Below are positions 2,514 through 51,317 of a DNA stretch of 60,717 nucleotides, in pieces. The notes below the pieces were generated by a model. The model did not search any database, was not told the origin of the DNA, and worked only from the letters and a program-made list of their open reading frames with translations. Source of the stretch: a virus; the IMG/VR virus record IMGVR_UViG_3300030060_008344, positions 1 through 60,717 of that record; one strand, given 5' to 3'. Position numbers and translations under genes: made by a program. Every line of letters starts with the position of its first letter. Position 1 is the stretch's first letter.

Positions 2514-4955
2514 ATGGGAAAGAAGATATCTCAGCTTACTATTGCTAGCACTCCATATGAAGGCGAAGAGCTTTTCGCTATGGTTGAAGATAGCGCTACT
2601 GTAGCAGCTCCAATTAGTTCATTTCAATCATTTTTATCAGGTCAAGATCACCTAGCATCACCGCATAAAAATAATAATTTTGTTTGTGATCAAACAGTAG
2701 CAGGTACTATTAGTGGCGAACAATTAAACATAGGTACCCAGAATAATGCTTCTTTAGGTACTGGAGCTTCTATAGCAGGAGGATTTTTACAAACTGCAAC
2801 ATCTAATCATACGTTTATTGGAGGTGGTTGCTGTAATACTGCTACTGGCAATGTATCTAATGTAGTAGGAGGAGCTAAAAATACTACTTGCGGTGCAGGG
2901 GGTTTTATAGGAAGCGGAGCATGTAATACCATAGATTCAGCTGCAGCTTGTAGTAGTGTAGTAGGAGGATTTAAAAATACTACTTGCGGATGTAATAGCT
3001 CTATAGGTGGTGGATATCAAAATTGTATTTCAGGTGATGGTGATTGCGGATATATTGGCGGTGGTCAATGGAATAACGTTACTGGATGTTATAGTGTTAC
3101 TGTTGCTGGTTTGGATAATAATGCACAAGGTGAATGTGCTGTATTATTGGGAGGCCGTGCAAACCAAGCGCGTGGAGATCTGTCCTCCGCAGTTGGAGGT
3201 CTTAGTTCATGTGCTATTGGTAAAGCATCATTCGTAGGTGGAGGTAGTTGTAACTGTGTATCAGGTTTAAGTTCATTCGCTGGTGGGGGGCTTTCAAATT
3301 TAATTATTGGAAACGCTAGTGTAGTAGTTGGTGGTAGTTCGCATACGGCTACCGGTAGCGGTGCTTTTATTGGTGGTGGTTTTTCAAATGGTATTTCAGG
3401 GTCAAGTAAAGAATCAGTAGTTGTAGGTGGAACTAATAATGTAGCTGCCGGTGGGCCTTGTAGCGTTATTGTAGGAGGCGATAGCAACTGTGTAAACTGT
3501 GAAGGTTCTAGTATTGGAGGAGGATCGAACAATTGTATTGCTGGAACAGGAGCAACTGGAGGCTGTTGTGCAACAATCGCAGGAGGTAGAAGCAATCTTA
3601 TTCAAGGTAAATGGGGGTTCGTAGGAGGTGGAGCTGTTAATAAAATTAATGGATGTAGTATTTATGGCACTATTGGTGGTGGAAATTTAAATAAAATAGG
3701 TGTTAATTCAACATCTAACTTTGGTTGTGCTACTATTGCAGGTGGCCAATCAAATGAGATTTGTAGTAGTGGCGGAACTATTGGCGGAGGCTGTGATAAT
3801 ATAGTTACAGGAAATCGAGCTGTAATAGCAGGTGGCCAGGACAATTTCGCTTCCGGAGCTGCTAACGTAGTTGGTGGTGGTAGTAATAATGAAAACTGTG
3901 CTGCTTGCGCAGTTGTGGGAGGCGGTTCAAGAAATTGTAATGCAGCAGGAACCTATGCAGTTATAGTAGGAGGTTGTGGTAATTATAATTGCAATGACAA
4001 CACGTTTATAGGAGGTGGAATTGCCAACTGCGTATCAGGTTCTAACGAAGCATCAGTTATTGCAGGTGGATATGGAAACTCTATGGTTGGCTCAGCAAGT
4101 GGTACATCTATTGTAGGTGGTGTTCATAACCGAGCTGATAATGTTGGAGGATTTGTCGGCGGAGGGTCAGGAAATAATGCTAGTGGTTGTTATACCATTA
4201 TTGTCGGTGGTTGTTGCCATGCTGCAAGTTGCGATTATGGAGTTGTAGTAGGAGGGCGGTGTGCATGCAACCAAGGACCATGTGGTTTTATTGGAGGAGG
4301 ATATTTAAACTGTATTGGCAGTAGTGCATCTTTTGGTACAATTGTTGGAGGTGAATGTATATCGGTAACTACTGCATGCAGTGTTGTGGTTGGAGGTAAA
4401 GGAAATTGCGCTCCATGCGGTAGTAATTCTTTTACAGGAGGCGGTTGTGGTAATGCTAATTGCGCTGCTTGTGGTGTGTTAGTAGGAGGTTGCCTAAACA
4501 AAGCATGTGGTGATTATAGCTTTATGGGTGGCGGCCGAGTTAGTTGTGCTACTTCTGACTCTTCGGTTGTTGTGGGAGGTTGTCAAAACTTAGAATTAGG
4601 TACGTGTATGAACTCGATTGTTGGAGGTAATAATCATAGAATATGTAGTGGTTCTACAGCTGGAGCTATCGGAGGAGGTACTGCCAATAAAATTGATGGT
4701 TCTGCTAACTGGGGCACTATTGCTGGAGGTTGCTTTAATGCACTATCTGGTAGTTATGGATTTATAGGCGGTGGGGAAACAAATACTATTAAATCTAGTC
4801 ACACTAAAGCTGCTATTGTAACTGCAGATATTACATCAGTATCAGGATGTATGTTACATGCTAATGCATTATATATTAAAAATCTACCTACAGCAGACCC
4901 TGGTGTAGCGGGTGTACTATATAGAGATGGTGCCACGGTAAAAGTATCGATATAA
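2514..4955 (+). CDS. cysteine-rich repeat fibre with YadA-head-like GGG..N repeats (813 aa)
   Basis: Residues 1-40 (opening MGKKISQLTIAS, then GEELFAMVED) resemble the N-terminal attachment module of phage fibre proteins. The C-terminal 30 residues (NLPTADPGVAGVLYRDG, ending KVSI) match a common C-terminal module of marine phage structural proteins. Between about 75 and 770 lie tens of imperfect 14-18 residue repeats of the form (I/V)(I/V)GGG-x2-N-x4-G, alternating IGGG and VVGG types. Such G-x-N/S repeats fold as trimeric left-handed beta-rolls in YadA-type adhesin heads. More than 50 cysteines sit in the turns (patterns such as GGGCCN, NCVSG, GGCCH), which is exceptional for a phage fibre. 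The likely role is a long, stiff, surface-exposed adhesin or fibre. It is followed by a glycosyltransferase gene, so the fibre could be glycosylated; that is inference. Confidence 0.75.
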   Translation: MGKKISQLTIASTPYEGEELFAMVEDSATVAAPISSFQSFLSGQDHLASPHKNNNFVCDQTVAGTISGEQLNIGTQNNASLGTGASIAGGFLQTATSNHTFIGGGCCNTATGNVSNVVGGAKNTTCGAGGFIGSGACNTIDSAAACSSVVGGFKNTTCGCNSSIGGGYQNCISGDGDCGYIGGGQWNNVTGCYSVTVAGLDNNAQGECAVLLGGRANQARGDLSSAVGGLSSCAIGKASFVGGGSCNCVSGLSSFAGGGLSNLIIGNASVVVGGSSHTATGSGAFIGGGFSNGISGSSKESVVVGGTNNVAAGGPCSVIVGGDSNCVNCEGSSIGGGSNNCIAGTGATGGCCATIAGGRSNLIQGKWGFVGGGAVNKINGCSIYGTIGGGNLNKIGVNSTSNFGCATIAGGQSNEICSSGGTIGGGCDNIVTGNRAVIAGGQDNFASGAANVVGGGSNNENCAACAVVGGGSRNCNAAGTYAVIVGGCGNYNCNDNTFIGGGIANCVSGSNEASVIAGGYGNSMVGSASGTSIVGGVHNRADNVGGFVGGGSGNNASGCYTIIVGGCCHAASCDYGVVVGGRCACNQGPCGFIGGGYLNCIGSSASFGTIVGGECISVTTACSVVVGGKGNCAPCGSNSFTGGGCGNANCAACGVLVGGCLNKACGDYSFMGGGRVSCATSDSSVVVGGCQNLELGTCMNSIVGGNNHRICSGSTAGAIGGGTANKIDGSANWGTIAGGCFNALSGSYGFIGGGETNTIKSSHTKAAIVTADITSVSGCMLHANALYIKNLPTADPGVAGVLYRDGATVKVSI

Positions 4956-46644: not shown

Positions 46645-47508
46645 ATGGCCTTTCCTAGTGACATAAAATTACCTTCTGATGCAAGATATTTTACATTTGT
46701 AGAGACAAATAAAAAATTTAATTCCAATTACGATATTACTTGGTCCTTTGAATATAGTTTACCAGCTACAAATATACCAGATCCAGCTAATTACGAATTA
46801 GGTTTTAGTACATTTATTACTAATCTTTCTGCGCCGCTTTCAGCCCTGCCAGGCCAGTATATTGGTGATCAAGACCCGGAATTTATTTTATCTGCTCACG
46901 CTCTTTTAACGGAATCTCCGTTGATATTAAAAACTGAAAACGATTCAACTATCTTACTTGAAGGTGGTCTTTTAAGTGGTAGTCTTGTAAAGGTAGCATT
47001 TGATTCTACTGGTATGTATGCTCTTTCAGGTAGAGATGATAGACCTGGGGTTGGGTTAAACGATGTTAATAGACAATCATTAGTAGTTAGAGATGTTTTA
47101 CATAACGTAAGAGCTAATTCACCTCTATCTACTATTTCTAATGTCTTTTCTACTTTATCCACAGATAGTTTTAGAGCATTAAGATTTAGATATGTAAATT
47201 TAGGGCAAAAAATTCACATCGATTTTAGAGAAGATAATACTACGGAATATACTCTACTCACAACTATTAATATAGAGCCTAGATTGACTAATTTTGATAA
47301 TTTAAATAACATCTATTGTGGTTTCTCGTTTACTACCCCTGTATCAACAACCAACACAGGGTTAAGTGCTAAGAATTTTTTCTTACGCAATTTTAACGTA
47401 GAAGGTTATGAAGGGAGCGAAGTTTTAACTGAAACAGTTATGACACCTCCGCTATCAGTTAACCCAAATACCCAATATACAACTGTAACTAATATTACCG
47501 CAAAATAA
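46645..47508 (+). CDS. lectin-like (concanavalin-fold) virion protein (287 aa)
   Basis: A 287-residue protein with an L-type-lectin-like beta-sandwich. The section FRALRFRYVNLGQKIHIDFR, TLLTTINIEPRLTNFDNLNN, and IYCGFSFTTPVS, then NFFLRNFNVEGYEG matches the last strands of such folds ('..V.V.IGFS.STP.....F.I.NF.VeG'). The N-terminus (PSDARYFTFVETNKKFNSNY, DITWSFEYSLPATNIPDPAN) would supply the first strands. It probably binds carbohydrates on the host or decorates the tail. It overlaps the next, very large, gene by one base (TAATG), so the two are probably parts of one assembly. The start is ATG 46645. Confidence 0.6.
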   Translation: MAFPSDIKLPSDARYFTFVETNKKFNSNYDITWSFEYSLPATNIPDPANYELGFSTFITNLSAPLSALPGQYIGDQDPEFILSAHALLTESPLILKTENDSTILLEGGLLSGSLVKVAFDSTGMYALSGRDDRPGVGLNDVNRQSLVVRDVLHNVRANSPLSTISNVFSTLSTDSFRALRFRYVNLGQKIHIDFREDNTTEYTLLTTINIEPRLTNFDNLNNIYCGFSFTTPVSTTNTGLSAKNFFLRNFNVEGYEGSEVLTETVMTPPLSVNPNTQYTTVTNITAK

Positions 47509-50500
47509 TGCAAATAACTCAATTAAAAGTTTTAAATGTAGATAGAAAACTACAACAGAGACCGGAGATTGGTGGCGGTGGTGTACCAAATTCATTTGAA
47601 GGAGCAGAAGGTTTAGTTTTTTTAAATGAAATAGAAGTTGATAGATTTTTTGAACCAGAAATAAATTATGAAATTTATGACCGTAATGGTGAAAAGGATG
47701 CTTTTAATGACCCGCTGTTAAGTTTAAGCGGTCATACGTATGTCACAATCATAGAAGATAGATATTTCTTAGTTATAGGTCAGATGCTTGAAGGTATTGC
47801 TGATCCGACTGATGGTAGTTTAGATTTTAGTATTCAATTTTCTAATGCAGAAGAAGACATTGGTATAGATTTAGTTACCGATATATCTATACCTAATAAT
47901 GAACAGACGCAGGAAGAAGAATCAGCGTCATCGGCAGTAACCCACGAAAAACGTAATCATGGGGATCAGACTATAACTTATCCGGATCAAACTGTTACAA
48001 CACAAGGACCAGGGACTTGTGATCCTACTGGAGGCTGTAGTAACTGCGCTGGAGCTGCTAAATGCGGTGGTGCGCCAGGTGCCGGAAACGCACAATCTGT
48101 TGACGAAGTATCCGTTCCACCACAAGGAGATGAAGATTTTACTTCAGAAGATGAATATCTCGGAGTAGTTTCTAACGAGCCTTCGTTTGTTGAAGAAACG
48201 ATTTCAGATGATGAGCCTTCGATTGTTGAAAGACCAGAATTAATTACAAACGTTGAAGAAGTGGTTTCAGTTGAACCTGCAGTTGTTGAAAGACCAGAAT
48301 TAATTACAAACGTTGAAGAAGTGGTTTCAGTTGAACCTGCAGTTGTTGAAGAAATTGAAGAATCAACAGCTACTACAGAAGAGGAGTATCTAGGAGAAAC
48401 AGAGACTCAAACTCAAACTGTAAGTGAACCGGTTATACCGCAATTTGTATCTAATGAACAAGAATTAAGAGATGCTATTAATACGTATGATGTTGTTTTT
48501 GTAAGGTCAGATATAACTTTAGAAGATTATGTTAGTATACCTGGTAATACAAAAATTCTAGGATTTAGCAACCCAACTATAACTTTCAAAGACTGGGCTT
48601 TTGATATTAGAGAAAGTAATATTGAGTTAAGAGGATTTACACTAAAACCTGCAGGTGAAACTAAACTAGGAATAGGTATACAAGTTACTAGACCTTCTAG
48701 ACAATCACTTGACGCTCCAGATAATATAAAAATTGATTCAATTACTTTCGAAAATAATGGAGGAGCGGGTGACAAGTGGTCAGCGGTTACAGTTTTAGGT
48801 TATAATTTTGTTGAATCTTTAGTTGATTCAGATAAAACCGTTCCTGGGTTATTACCTGATGCTAAGCCTATTACTAATTTATCTATTACAAATAATTTAT
48901 TTGAAAATACTCAAAATAATGCATTAGATTTATGGAATATAGATGGCGCTGTTATTACAAACAACGTAATTAACAGTACACGAGGATCTACTACGTTAAT
49001 GGGAAATGGTATAAGAGCTAATTCTTTAAGTAATTCAACTATTACTAGTAATACTTTAACAGATATAGGAAGAAGCGCTATTGAAGTTACCGGTAATGGA
49101 ACTAGCAAATTATCAGTACGGGATAATCTTATAAATGTATTCGGTACACAAACCAATCTTACAAATACTTTTACTTCAGGTGTTTCAATTGTTCAAGGAG
49201 CTAATGATATTACAGTTAAGGATAATAATATTACTGGTAGTGGAATAGGAGGTGGTGTTGAGGTAGCTCAAAATTCTTCAAATGCTTTAATTGAAAACAA
49301 TATTATTACAAATGTTAATAAAGGAGTTACTATTGCTGCTCATGTAGATACTTTTGAAGTAAAAGACAATGTTATCTCTGATTCTAAGTACGGTGTACAA
49401 TTATATCAAGTTTGGAATGGTGTAGTAAATTCGAACACGGTAACTCAAAAAGAGGGAGAAAGTATAGTAAGACCCGCTATTTCAATTGAGCAGAGTAATG
49501 GAGTAGCAGTAGTAAATAATCAAATTTCTGGTGATTATTTTCCTGAAAATAATGAAACTGCTATTTTAACTTATAGTAATTATCCAGGCCCGTTAGAGGC
49601 TAATAGACTTCAATATGGTGGAGCTACTATTGTAGATAAACTGGAGACTATAAAATATTCTCTCGGTCAGCCTTCTAAATTTGACCTTATATATAACTCA
49701 GCTGCATCATCAGCATCAGATTTAATAGCTAATACTTTTGCTGGTAATAAATTAAATGGGCAAGGTCGACCGTTTTTTAATAATAGCTCTGTAGTAGTTT
49801 TTCCAGAAAATGAACCTGCCACTAAAGGAGAAGTTAGTAAGAGTGACAAGCAAACTCCTGATGTTTTAACATTTCCTAAAACCGATTTTGTTACAACAGT
49901 AGTTAATACAACCGGTGAATCAAAAACTGCTGATGAAGTAGTTGTAGATAGTCAAGATAGCAGTAGCGAGAGTACAAATACATCAACAGTTGTTGTATGT
50001 AATGATACTAAGACAGATACATGTACGTTTTGTTCTGTAGAATCCACATGTAGTATATGTGCTAGTGATTTATGTACTGTTTGTGTGAATACCAATCCCG
50101 GATATGGTTGCAACAATGATACAACATGTAAATGTTCTGTACCTACACCTGATGAATGTTTAGTAGCTATCGCGATAGCTGAAAATGCTTTACGTAATTG
50201 TGTTGATACTAATAGTGTTTGTACTCCTGGAGGCGGAAGTTGTGCATGCTGTTGTACGGTTTGTTTACCGGGTCAAGATGTATGTATACCTAGTGGTGAA
50301 GTATGTTTACCGGGAGCAGGTACAGTTTGTTTACCTGGCGGAGGTGAGGTTTGTTTACCCAAAGGAGGTTCTGTTTGTTTACCCGGCGGAGGCGAGGTTT
50401 GCTTACCTGGTGGTGGTACAGTTAGTACACCTGACGGATGTCAATGTTGTGTTTCAAAAGGATGCGAAACATGCTTACCAAGTGATGGTTGTGTATGTTT

Positions 50501-51317
50501 ACCTGGTGGTGGTACTGTATGTTTTCCAGGTGGAGGCACTGTATGTATAACACGAGGAGGATGTGTATGTGCTCCTGGTCCTATATTTCCAGACAGTACT
50601 ATTGGCGGTGGTAGCGCTACTGATGATCCAGACTCTGATGATGACGGAAGACCTATTATTTTTCCAGGCGGTGGTATAAATGTAGATCCTATACCACCGT
50701 TTCCTGAAGAAGCTTGTGAGTCATGTTGTATTCCCGGACCATTTGGTGGTTGCTGTATAACTGGTCCATTAGATCCAACGGATCCATCTAGAAGAGATGT
50801 TTGTATTGATGATGGTTCAAGTGATTCGGATGATGATTATAATGGAGGAGGCATTTTTACTCCAAATGGATGTATTGGTGATCCTGTTACGACTACAGGT
50901 GGTGGTGGTGGTGATGGTCCTCCCTTTACTGGTCCACCTCCTACATTTACACCTCCACCTACAATTATATTTCCACCTCCACAACAACCTCCATTTGTAC
51001 CTGCAGATTGCGGCAAACCACCTGTTCCTAGAAAAGGTGTAGAAGAAGGTGAAGATCCTGATACTCCAATACCTAAAGAACCTGAACAACCAGAGCCAGA
51101 AACAGAGATTTTACTTTACCCAGCACCGGTATTACCGCTTCAAGTACCGTTTTTAAGTGATATTAACTTTGATACAAACAGTACTCTTAAAGTACCACCT
51201 CCGTTTTCATTTGAAGAAGAGGTTACTGATACTGCAGCTACTCCTACTACTTCTGAATCTAATAAAAAGGAAGATCTTTGTGATGACGAAGAGGATTGTA
51301 ATAAGTTAGGATTTTAA
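47508..51317 (+). CDS. giant multidomain beta-helix protein with Cys-Pro-Gly octapeptide repeats (1269 aa)
   Basis: A 1269-residue protein with: (1) 1-130, a beta-rich module starting on the lectin gene's stop; (2) about 140-310, a disordered acidic linker with a short Cys-rich patch and a duplicated 20-residue unit; (3) about 315-720, a right-handed parallel beta-helix (repeats such as SITNNLFENTQNNALDLWNI, ITNNVINST, ISDSKYGVQLYQ, VVNSNTVTQ), as in pectate-lyase-like depolymerases; (4) about 825-1035, a Cys-rich part with the octapeptide V-C-L-P-G-G-G-x in tandem; (5) a Pro-rich tail ending DLCDDEEDCNKLGF. The beta-helix may cut or bind surface glycans. The full protein is probably a tail spike or appendage. 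Its stop shares TTAA with the convergent gene. Confidence 0.7.
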   Translation: MQITQLKVLNVDRKLQQRPEIGGGGVPNSFEGAEGLVFLNEIEVDRFFEPEINYEIYDRNGEKDAFNDPLLSLSGHTYVTIIEDRYFLVIGQMLEGIADPTDGSLDFSIQFSNAEEDIGIDLVTDISIPNNEQTQEEESASSAVTHEKRNHGDQTITYPDQTVTTQGPGTCDPTGGCSNCAGAAKCGGAPGAGNAQSVDEVSVPPQGDEDFTSEDEYLGVVSNEPSFVEETISDDEPSIVERPELITNVEEVVSVEPAVVERPELITNVEEVVSVEPAVVEEIEESTATTEEEYLGETETQTQTVSEPVIPQFVSNEQELRDAINTYDVVFVRSDITLEDYVSIPGNTKILGFSNPTITFKDWAFDIRESNIELRGFTLKPAGETKLGIGIQVTRPSRQSLDAPDNIKIDSITFENNGGAGDKWSAVTVLGYNFVESLVDSDKTVPGLLPDAKPITNLSITNNLFENTQNNALDLWNIDGAVITNNVINSTRGSTTLMGNGIRANSLSNSTITSNTLTDIGRSAIEVTGNGTSKLSVRDNLINVFGTQTNLTNTFTSGVSIVQGANDITVKDNNITGSGIGGGVEVAQNSSNALIENNIITNVNKGVTIAAHVDTFEVKDNVISDSKYGVQLYQVWNGVVNSNTVTQKEGESIVRPAISIEQSNGVAVVNNQISGDYFPENNETAILTYSNYPGPLEANRLQYGGATIVDKLETIKYSLGQPSKFDLIYNSAASSASDLIANTFAGNKLNGQGRPFFNNSSVVVFPENEPATKGEVSKSDKQTPDVLTFPKTDFVTTVVNTTGESKTADEVVVDSQDSSSESTNTSTVVVCNDTKTDTCTFCSVESTCSICASDLCTVCVNTNPGYGCNNDTTCKCSVPTPDECLVAIAIAENALRNCVDTNSVCTPGGGSCACCCTVCLPGQDVCIPSGEVCLPGAGTVCLPGGGEVCLPKGGSVCLPGGGEVCLPGGGTVSTPDGCQCCVSKGCETCLPSDGCVCLPGGGTVCFPGGGTVCITRGGCVCAPGPIFPDSTIGGGSATDDPDSDDDGRPIIFPGGGINVDPIPPFPEEACESCCIPGPFGGCCITGPLDPTDPSRRDVCIDDGSSDSDDDYNGGGIFTPNGCIGDPVTTTGGGGGDGPPFTGPPPTFTPPPTIIFPPPQQPPFVPADCGKPPVPRKGVEEGEDPDTPIPKEPEQPEPETEILLYPAPVLPLQVPFLSDINFDTNSTLKVPPPFSFEEEVTDTAATPTTSESNKKEDLCDDEEDCNKLGF
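48223..48350 (+). repeat. 60-bp direct tandem repeat inside the 1269-aa gene
   Basis: Positions 48223-48290 and 48283-48350 are identical over 68 bases, so a 60-base unit (20 residues, containing RPELITNVEEVVSVEP) is present twice without a single change. Related but diverged copies flank it. Confidence 0.85.
50301..50420 (+). repeat. five tandem 24-bp units encoding V-C-L-P-[GK]-[GA]-G-x
   Basis: Units start at 50301, 50325, 50349, 50373 and 50397 and encode VCLPGAGT, VCLPGGGE, VCLPKGGS, VCLPGGGE and VCLPGGGT. Further units follow at 50493 and 50517 (VCLPGGGT, VCFPGGGT). The protein repeat is stricter than the DNA repeat, so selection on the protein is likely. Confidence 0.88.

Follow-up and report, generated by a model that had tools for sequence, protein, structure and literature searches.

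Several described phage systems share individual traits with the protein examined here. The needles of T4 gp5 and VgrG are built from an eight-residue repeat in a phage tail protein, with a VxGxxxxx motif in which Gly lies two residues after Val (PMC3004832). Right-handed beta-helix tail spikes (PF13229, PHROG 2234) carry the same type of payload domain. In Agrobacterium phage Milano, a contractile-tail phage with many cysteines in its tail and receptor-binding parts, inter-chain disulfides join tail components, including spikes and fibres (PMC10811340). Finally, pelagimyophages and cyanomyophages are, like the phage described here, aquatic T4-type phages with many variable receptor-binding-like genes, and their host recognition proteins include Mtd, YadA and collagen-repeat domains (PMC7029224).

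A modular protein that closes the tail gene cluster

The window (i.e. the whole 60,717-base stretch that was analysed) covers the opening 60.7 kb of a virus record of 70,242 bases and has a G+C content of 33 %. PHROG matches to a terminase, tail sheath, baseplate wedge, clamp loader, single-strand binding protein, primase and DnaB-like helicase identify it as a T4-type contractile-tail phage. Among annotated phages, the best terminase match was to rhizobial T4-like phages (38 % identity), while the primase reached 27 % identity at best. Judged by its sequence, this is a phage without a close named or cultured relative, which sets the present group apart from the pelagimyophages and cyanomyophages, as does a spike family unmatched in annotated phages.

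The tail gene cluster is closed by a 1269-residue ORF, located downstream of genes with Mtd_N and Collar domains (Table 1). The order of its parts is an N-terminal Ig-like beta-sandwich, a linker, a payload, a low-complexity spacer and a C-terminal tail. The N-terminal domain is predicted with high confidence by AlphaFold2 to be an all-beta, Ig-like sandwich; neither a fold search of PDB and BFVD nor a profile search against PDB sequences returned a significant match for it. The payload was detected by profile as a parallel beta-helix (PF13229, passing the Pfam cut-off; PHROG 2234, tail spike). Unlike the known beta-helix tail spikes, the N-domain, spacer and C-terminal tail match no library family, and the spacer repeat is without counterpart in the matched families.

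Table 1. Coordinates of features in the 1269-residue ORF and its octapeptide array
Feature	Residues	Position	Strand	Evidence or remark
Modular tail-spike-like protein carrying the repeat	1-1269	47508..51317	+	Pfam Beta_helix 5e-11, NosD 1e-8; PHROG 2234 tail spike 3e-8
Conserved N-terminal domain	1-135	47508..47912	+	25 homologous ORFs; AlphaFold2 pLDDT 93
Small Cys patch (CDPTGGCSNCAGAAKC)	171-186	48018..48065	+	
60-bp tandem duplication in acidic linker (2.1 copies, 100%)		48223..48350	+	TRF
Right-handed beta-helix payload, without Cys	311-830	48438..49997	+	Pfam, PHROG
Cys-rich pre-array segment	831-917	49998..50258	+	
Octapeptide array, about 14 units V-C/S-L-P-G-G-G-x	918-1024	50259..50579	+	
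Regular block 1, five 24-bp units		50301..50420	+	
Regular block 2 (VCLPGGGT VCFPGGGT VCITRGGC)		50493..50564	+	
Fast-evolving Gly/Asp/Pro-rich segment	1025-1165	50580..51002	+	dN/dS 0.58
Conserved C-terminal tail, YPAPVLPLQxPFLS... to C-x5-C-N-x-L-x-F	1166-1269	51003..51314	+	32 homologous ORFs

Homologues were gathered by a scan with the neighbouring primase, which returned 68 loci. The ORF beside the primase has a common C-terminal tail in 32 of these, and the N-domain is found in 25 ORFs; many of the remaining loci stop short of the gene or carry different genes there. Scanning with the C-terminal tail yielded five further members, using a profile built from a closer set of sequences, the 18-sequence set being too diverse to scan with. 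The family, as defined here, comprises proteins with a homologous N-domain and C-terminal tail encoded adjacent to the primase, and the window protein has all of these. On sequence comparison, the family occurs in uncultured T4-type phages and keeps its two ends fixed while payload and spacer are exchanged. A beta-helix payload is present in the window and in L057, L062, L128, L126, L129, L095, L073, L076, L130 and L067 (L-numbers denote loci). Another payload, with conserved His, Asp and D-S-x-S-P, either replaces it in the slot or forms a second payload (L061:14025–14987, L073:14354–15295, L094:17051–17977 and L097:13717–14742); by these residues it looks like a trypsin-type serine protease, and it returned no significant match in Pfam or PDB.

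Nearly every lineage fills the spacer slot with a tandem repeat of its own (PPYTT, DTT, TDDGTDDS, SVDPTDTT, T/S runs or CxPGP motifs). In the nearest beta-helix relatives (L062 and L128), the spacer is Cys-rich with irregular V/I/T-C/S-x-P-G/P motifs, and a short version is retained in L061 and L126 (CIPGP, VCVPEGGTCIP). These sequences suggest that the regular array grew from a V/I/T-C/S-x-P-G/P-like seed motif. L062 and L128 carry a further Cys repeat, CPPSTCPPSI, the copy number of which varies between strains.

The end of the C-terminal tail, C-x4/5-C-N-x-L-x-F/Y, is common to the family, with the Cys pair invariant in the 18-sequence alignment, and may represent an assembly or docking tag. 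In L091, the neighbouring large gene is otherwise different and terminates in CPPESRGGPRCNVLKF. The linkers of the window protein (residues 136–310), L057, L062, L061, L117, L095, L126, L128 and L129 each contain one to four copies of a short motif, E/D-E-Y-L-G, possibly a binding motif.

The octapeptide array and its divergence from a sister strain

An earlier note on this DNA had described five units of exactly 24 bases, with more from position 50493. Translation and TRF agree with that description, and the array proved to be longer than was claimed, at approximately 14 units. The five contiguous units of block 1 read VCLPGAGT, VCLPGGGE, VCLPKGGS, VCLPGGGE and VCLPGGGT, and TRF returned a period of 24 at 50300–50423 (5.2 copies) and 50471–50546 and a period of 48 at 50295–50438. 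Most units are 8-mers, two are 7-mers (VCLPGQD and VCIPSGE), some are degenerate, and an isolated VCTPGGGS lies ahead of the array at residue 904. Within residues 918–1024, matches at lag 8 were found at 50 of 99 positions, whereas 2000 shuffles averaged 12.4 and never exceeded 25. The DNA of the units differs at many synonymous sites while the peptide is retained, indicating that the array is no fresh duplication. The CACCC, CQCC and CETC groups reported around the units are present, as are the beta-helix and the proline-rich tail between which the array had been placed. A 121-residue ORF in another frame of the array (50185–50550) is a mechanical by-product of the repeat and was not counted as a gene.

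No match covering the array was found in Pfam, NCBIfam, PHROG, PDB sequences or annotated phages, so the proposal that no known phage domain has this form holds for the collections searched. In annotated phages, tblastn with the whole protein, the Cys region and the beta-helix region also returned no match, although BLAST masks low complexity and is weak for the array. A period-8 pattern scan of viral contigs and of bacterial and archaeal genomes returned unrelated frames only, mostly GC-rich or short. The Cys octapeptide was thus found only in the window and in one relative with 86 % identity, and is apparently undescribed within the limits set by the masking of low complexity and by the coverage of the collections, from which records very close to the window may be absent. 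Modular phage adhesins with repeat spacers are already known; what is new is the Cys-Pro-Gly octapeptide. Membership of a collagen- or metallothionein-like family, which the earlier note had named as grounds for abandoning its claim, is not borne out: there are three matches at lag 3 vs 50 at lag 8, i.e. the collagen period of 3 is absent, and, relative to the dense conserved CxC/CxxC of small metallothionein proteins, the array has 18 Cys in 107 residues, spaced by eight, with five not conserved and no family match. An elastin-like VPGxG pentapeptide was likewise rejected (one match at lag 5), the array sharing only its Pro-Gly richness.

The period of exactly 8 raises the alternative of an intertwined beta-needle of three chains, as in the octapeptide domain of T4 gp5/VgrG, in which outward-facing Cys would staple the chains together. 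Tailspikes are usually trimers, and phmmer returned a weak match to the gp5/VgrG spike 9gtr (E value 0.02). However, the reversed array matched more strongly (9gtr, E value 0.0024, together with several T4 gp5 entries), meaning that the match reflects periodicity and composition and carries no weight as homology. Moreover, the array reads Val-Cys-Leu-Pro (V-C-L-P-G-G-G) where the gp5/VgrG motif demands V-x-G, and Pro at position 4 and two seven-residue units are ill suited to a regular beta-helix. We consider a needle improbable.

Scans with the whole protein or the N-domain returned no relative besides the single contig with 86 % identity (L001 = L056 = L057 = L125), and the comparison between strains is of this one pair. 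The number of array units is identical in the two, and the suggested variation in unit number between strains is not seen in the pair available. The relative lacks the RPELITN insertions found in the acidic linker of the window protein. The arrays differ at 14 of 107 residues. Purifying selection acts on the array, whose dN/dS of 0.13 is in line with the low values of the N-domain (0.12) and C-terminal tail (0.11); the stretch that follows it reaches 0.58. Of the Pro, Leu and Gly residues, 12/12, 8/8 and 26/27, respectively, are retained (together 46/47), whereas Cys is the most replaced residue, with 13 of 18 kept, four changed to Ser and one to Arg (Fisher p about 0.06). Retention of Pro, Leu and Gly alongside loss of Cys argues that a V-x-L-P-G-G-G skeleton is held by selection and that a single Cys is dispensable. 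Losses fell in neighbouring pairs (957 with 965, 995 with 997), which, in one comparison, hints at pairing of cysteines.

Synonymous divergence from the relative (dS) reaches 0.54 across the array and 0.97 immediately upstream, compared with 0.13–0.35 in seven neighbouring genes. Across 49998–50579, it is two- to fourfold above that of the flanking genes, which may reflect unit-to-unit exchange or past recombination.

Cysteine distribution and the candidate roles of the array

The protein contains 49 Cys, of which four lie at residues 171–186, 41 at residues 831–1110 and four farther on. Residues 1–166 and 195–830 are free of Cys, and all cysteines are thus in linkers, spacer or tail. An ungapped alignment of residues 831–868 with L062, L128, L126 and L129 shows several Cys in the window and L057, gained at positions where these four relatives, Cys-free over this stretch, carry E, V, N or T. 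This gain of Cys in quantity over older sequence argues for use and against accident. The other large structural proteins of the window contain 0–1.5 % Cys, with one exception.

That exception is a second very Cys-rich protein (2514–4955, + strand; 813 aa, 54 Cys, 6.6 %) with GGGxxNxxSG-type repeats that recall YadA-head-like solenoids. It returned no match in Pfam, PHROG or NCBIfam. Its homologues in ten related records contain 3.6–7.2 % Cys, indicating that a high Cys content is typical of this protein across the group.

The earlier note had also suggested a metal-binding array. A Cys-rich region binding zinc or Fe-S, with a zinc-ribbon-like site made up of the CxxC pairs 839/842 and 856/859 and with further ligands from the array, is in keeping with the conservation of C839, C842, C856 and C859 in both the window and L057. 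Against this, residues 831–1165, the array included, contain no His, searches of Pfam and PDB were without match, the array Cys are not conserved and no confident fold was predicted; we regard metal binding as quite unlikely, and the suggestion fares poorly for the array itself, where Cys is the residue most often replaced between strains. With Cys not fixed and Pro, Leu and Gly nearly so, a redundantly crosslinked stalk is favoured over a metal cluster that needs every Cys.

Alternatively, the array may be an expanded low-complexity linker in which Cys, Ser, Asn and Thr can stand in for one another as small residues and Cys forms no functional crosslinks. The replacement of Cys in the sister strain, mostly by Ser, fits this, as do a window unit that already reads V-S-T-P, the Cys-free repeats that fill the slot in other lineages and the raised dS of the Cys region, a sign of fast turnover or exchange. 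The readier loss of Cys than of other array residues also fits Cys as a merely tolerated small residue. However, 41 Cys in 280 residues and repeated Cys gain are hard to explain by drift, and the array matches the conserved N-domain in its low dN/dS. A plain linker therefore seems to us possible but rather doubtful.

The reading that we prefer, and to which we give an even chance, is that the array serves a modular, receptor-binding tail-spike-like protein as a lineage-specific repeat spacer (stalk), the cysteines of which are disulfide-stapled after lysis. The confinement of Cys to linkers, spacer and tail and its gain at residues 831–868, in a phage whose structural proteins are otherwise poor in Cys, speak for such a stalk. 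From the gene's place as the last of the tail gene cluster, we infer a trimeric protein of the virion that binds glycans or acts as a depolymerase; its location in the virion, oligomeric state, disulfides and glycan target are all putative. The array would separate the beta-helix payload, which presumably binds or cleaves a glycan on the host surface, from the conserved C-terminal tail. The Pro-Gly-Gly-Gly turn and alternating V-x-L would give an extended, flexible, Gly/Pro-rich exposed chain. AlphaFold2 returned no confident fold for residues 823–1269 (pLDDT 37), a result compatible with flexibility or with an oligomer invisible to a monomer run, and one that says nothing on crosslinks. The cysteines would most likely oxidise after lysis to form disulfides within and between chains, and this stapling would be redundant enough for single Cys-to-Ser losses to be tolerated. 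Disulfide stapling of the stalk has its precedent in phage Milano (PMC10811340), although the Milano cysteines lie in folded domains of sheath, tube and baseplate without a tandem repeat and the crosslinks considered here are conjectural. The rod that the earlier note had envisaged survives in part: a stalk or spacer before the C-terminal tail fits the architecture of the family, while dependence on each Cys does not. More tentatively, and with a probability that we hold to be low, the array may be a new kind of self-stapling stalk, i.e. a Gly/Pro octapeptide chain in which almost all units carry a Cys. It would be synthesised in reduced form inside the host and, once oxidised and crosslinked after lysis, would stiffen the spike chains or tie them together.

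Implications for phage adhesins

The comparison documents a family of modular spikes from uncultured T4-type phages, with fixed ends between which payload and spacer are swapped. The chemistry of the spacer, with a Cys every eight residues and Cys/Ser exchange between strains, leads to a direct prediction, namely redox-dependent crosslinking of a phage adhesin. If the spacer reading alone holds, the protein would be a modest addition to phage adhesin diversity. If crosslinking is true, the virion disulfide networks that phage Milano has in folded domains would gain a counterpart in a repetitive stalk, and the array would suggest a natural crosslinkable repeat for protein materials.
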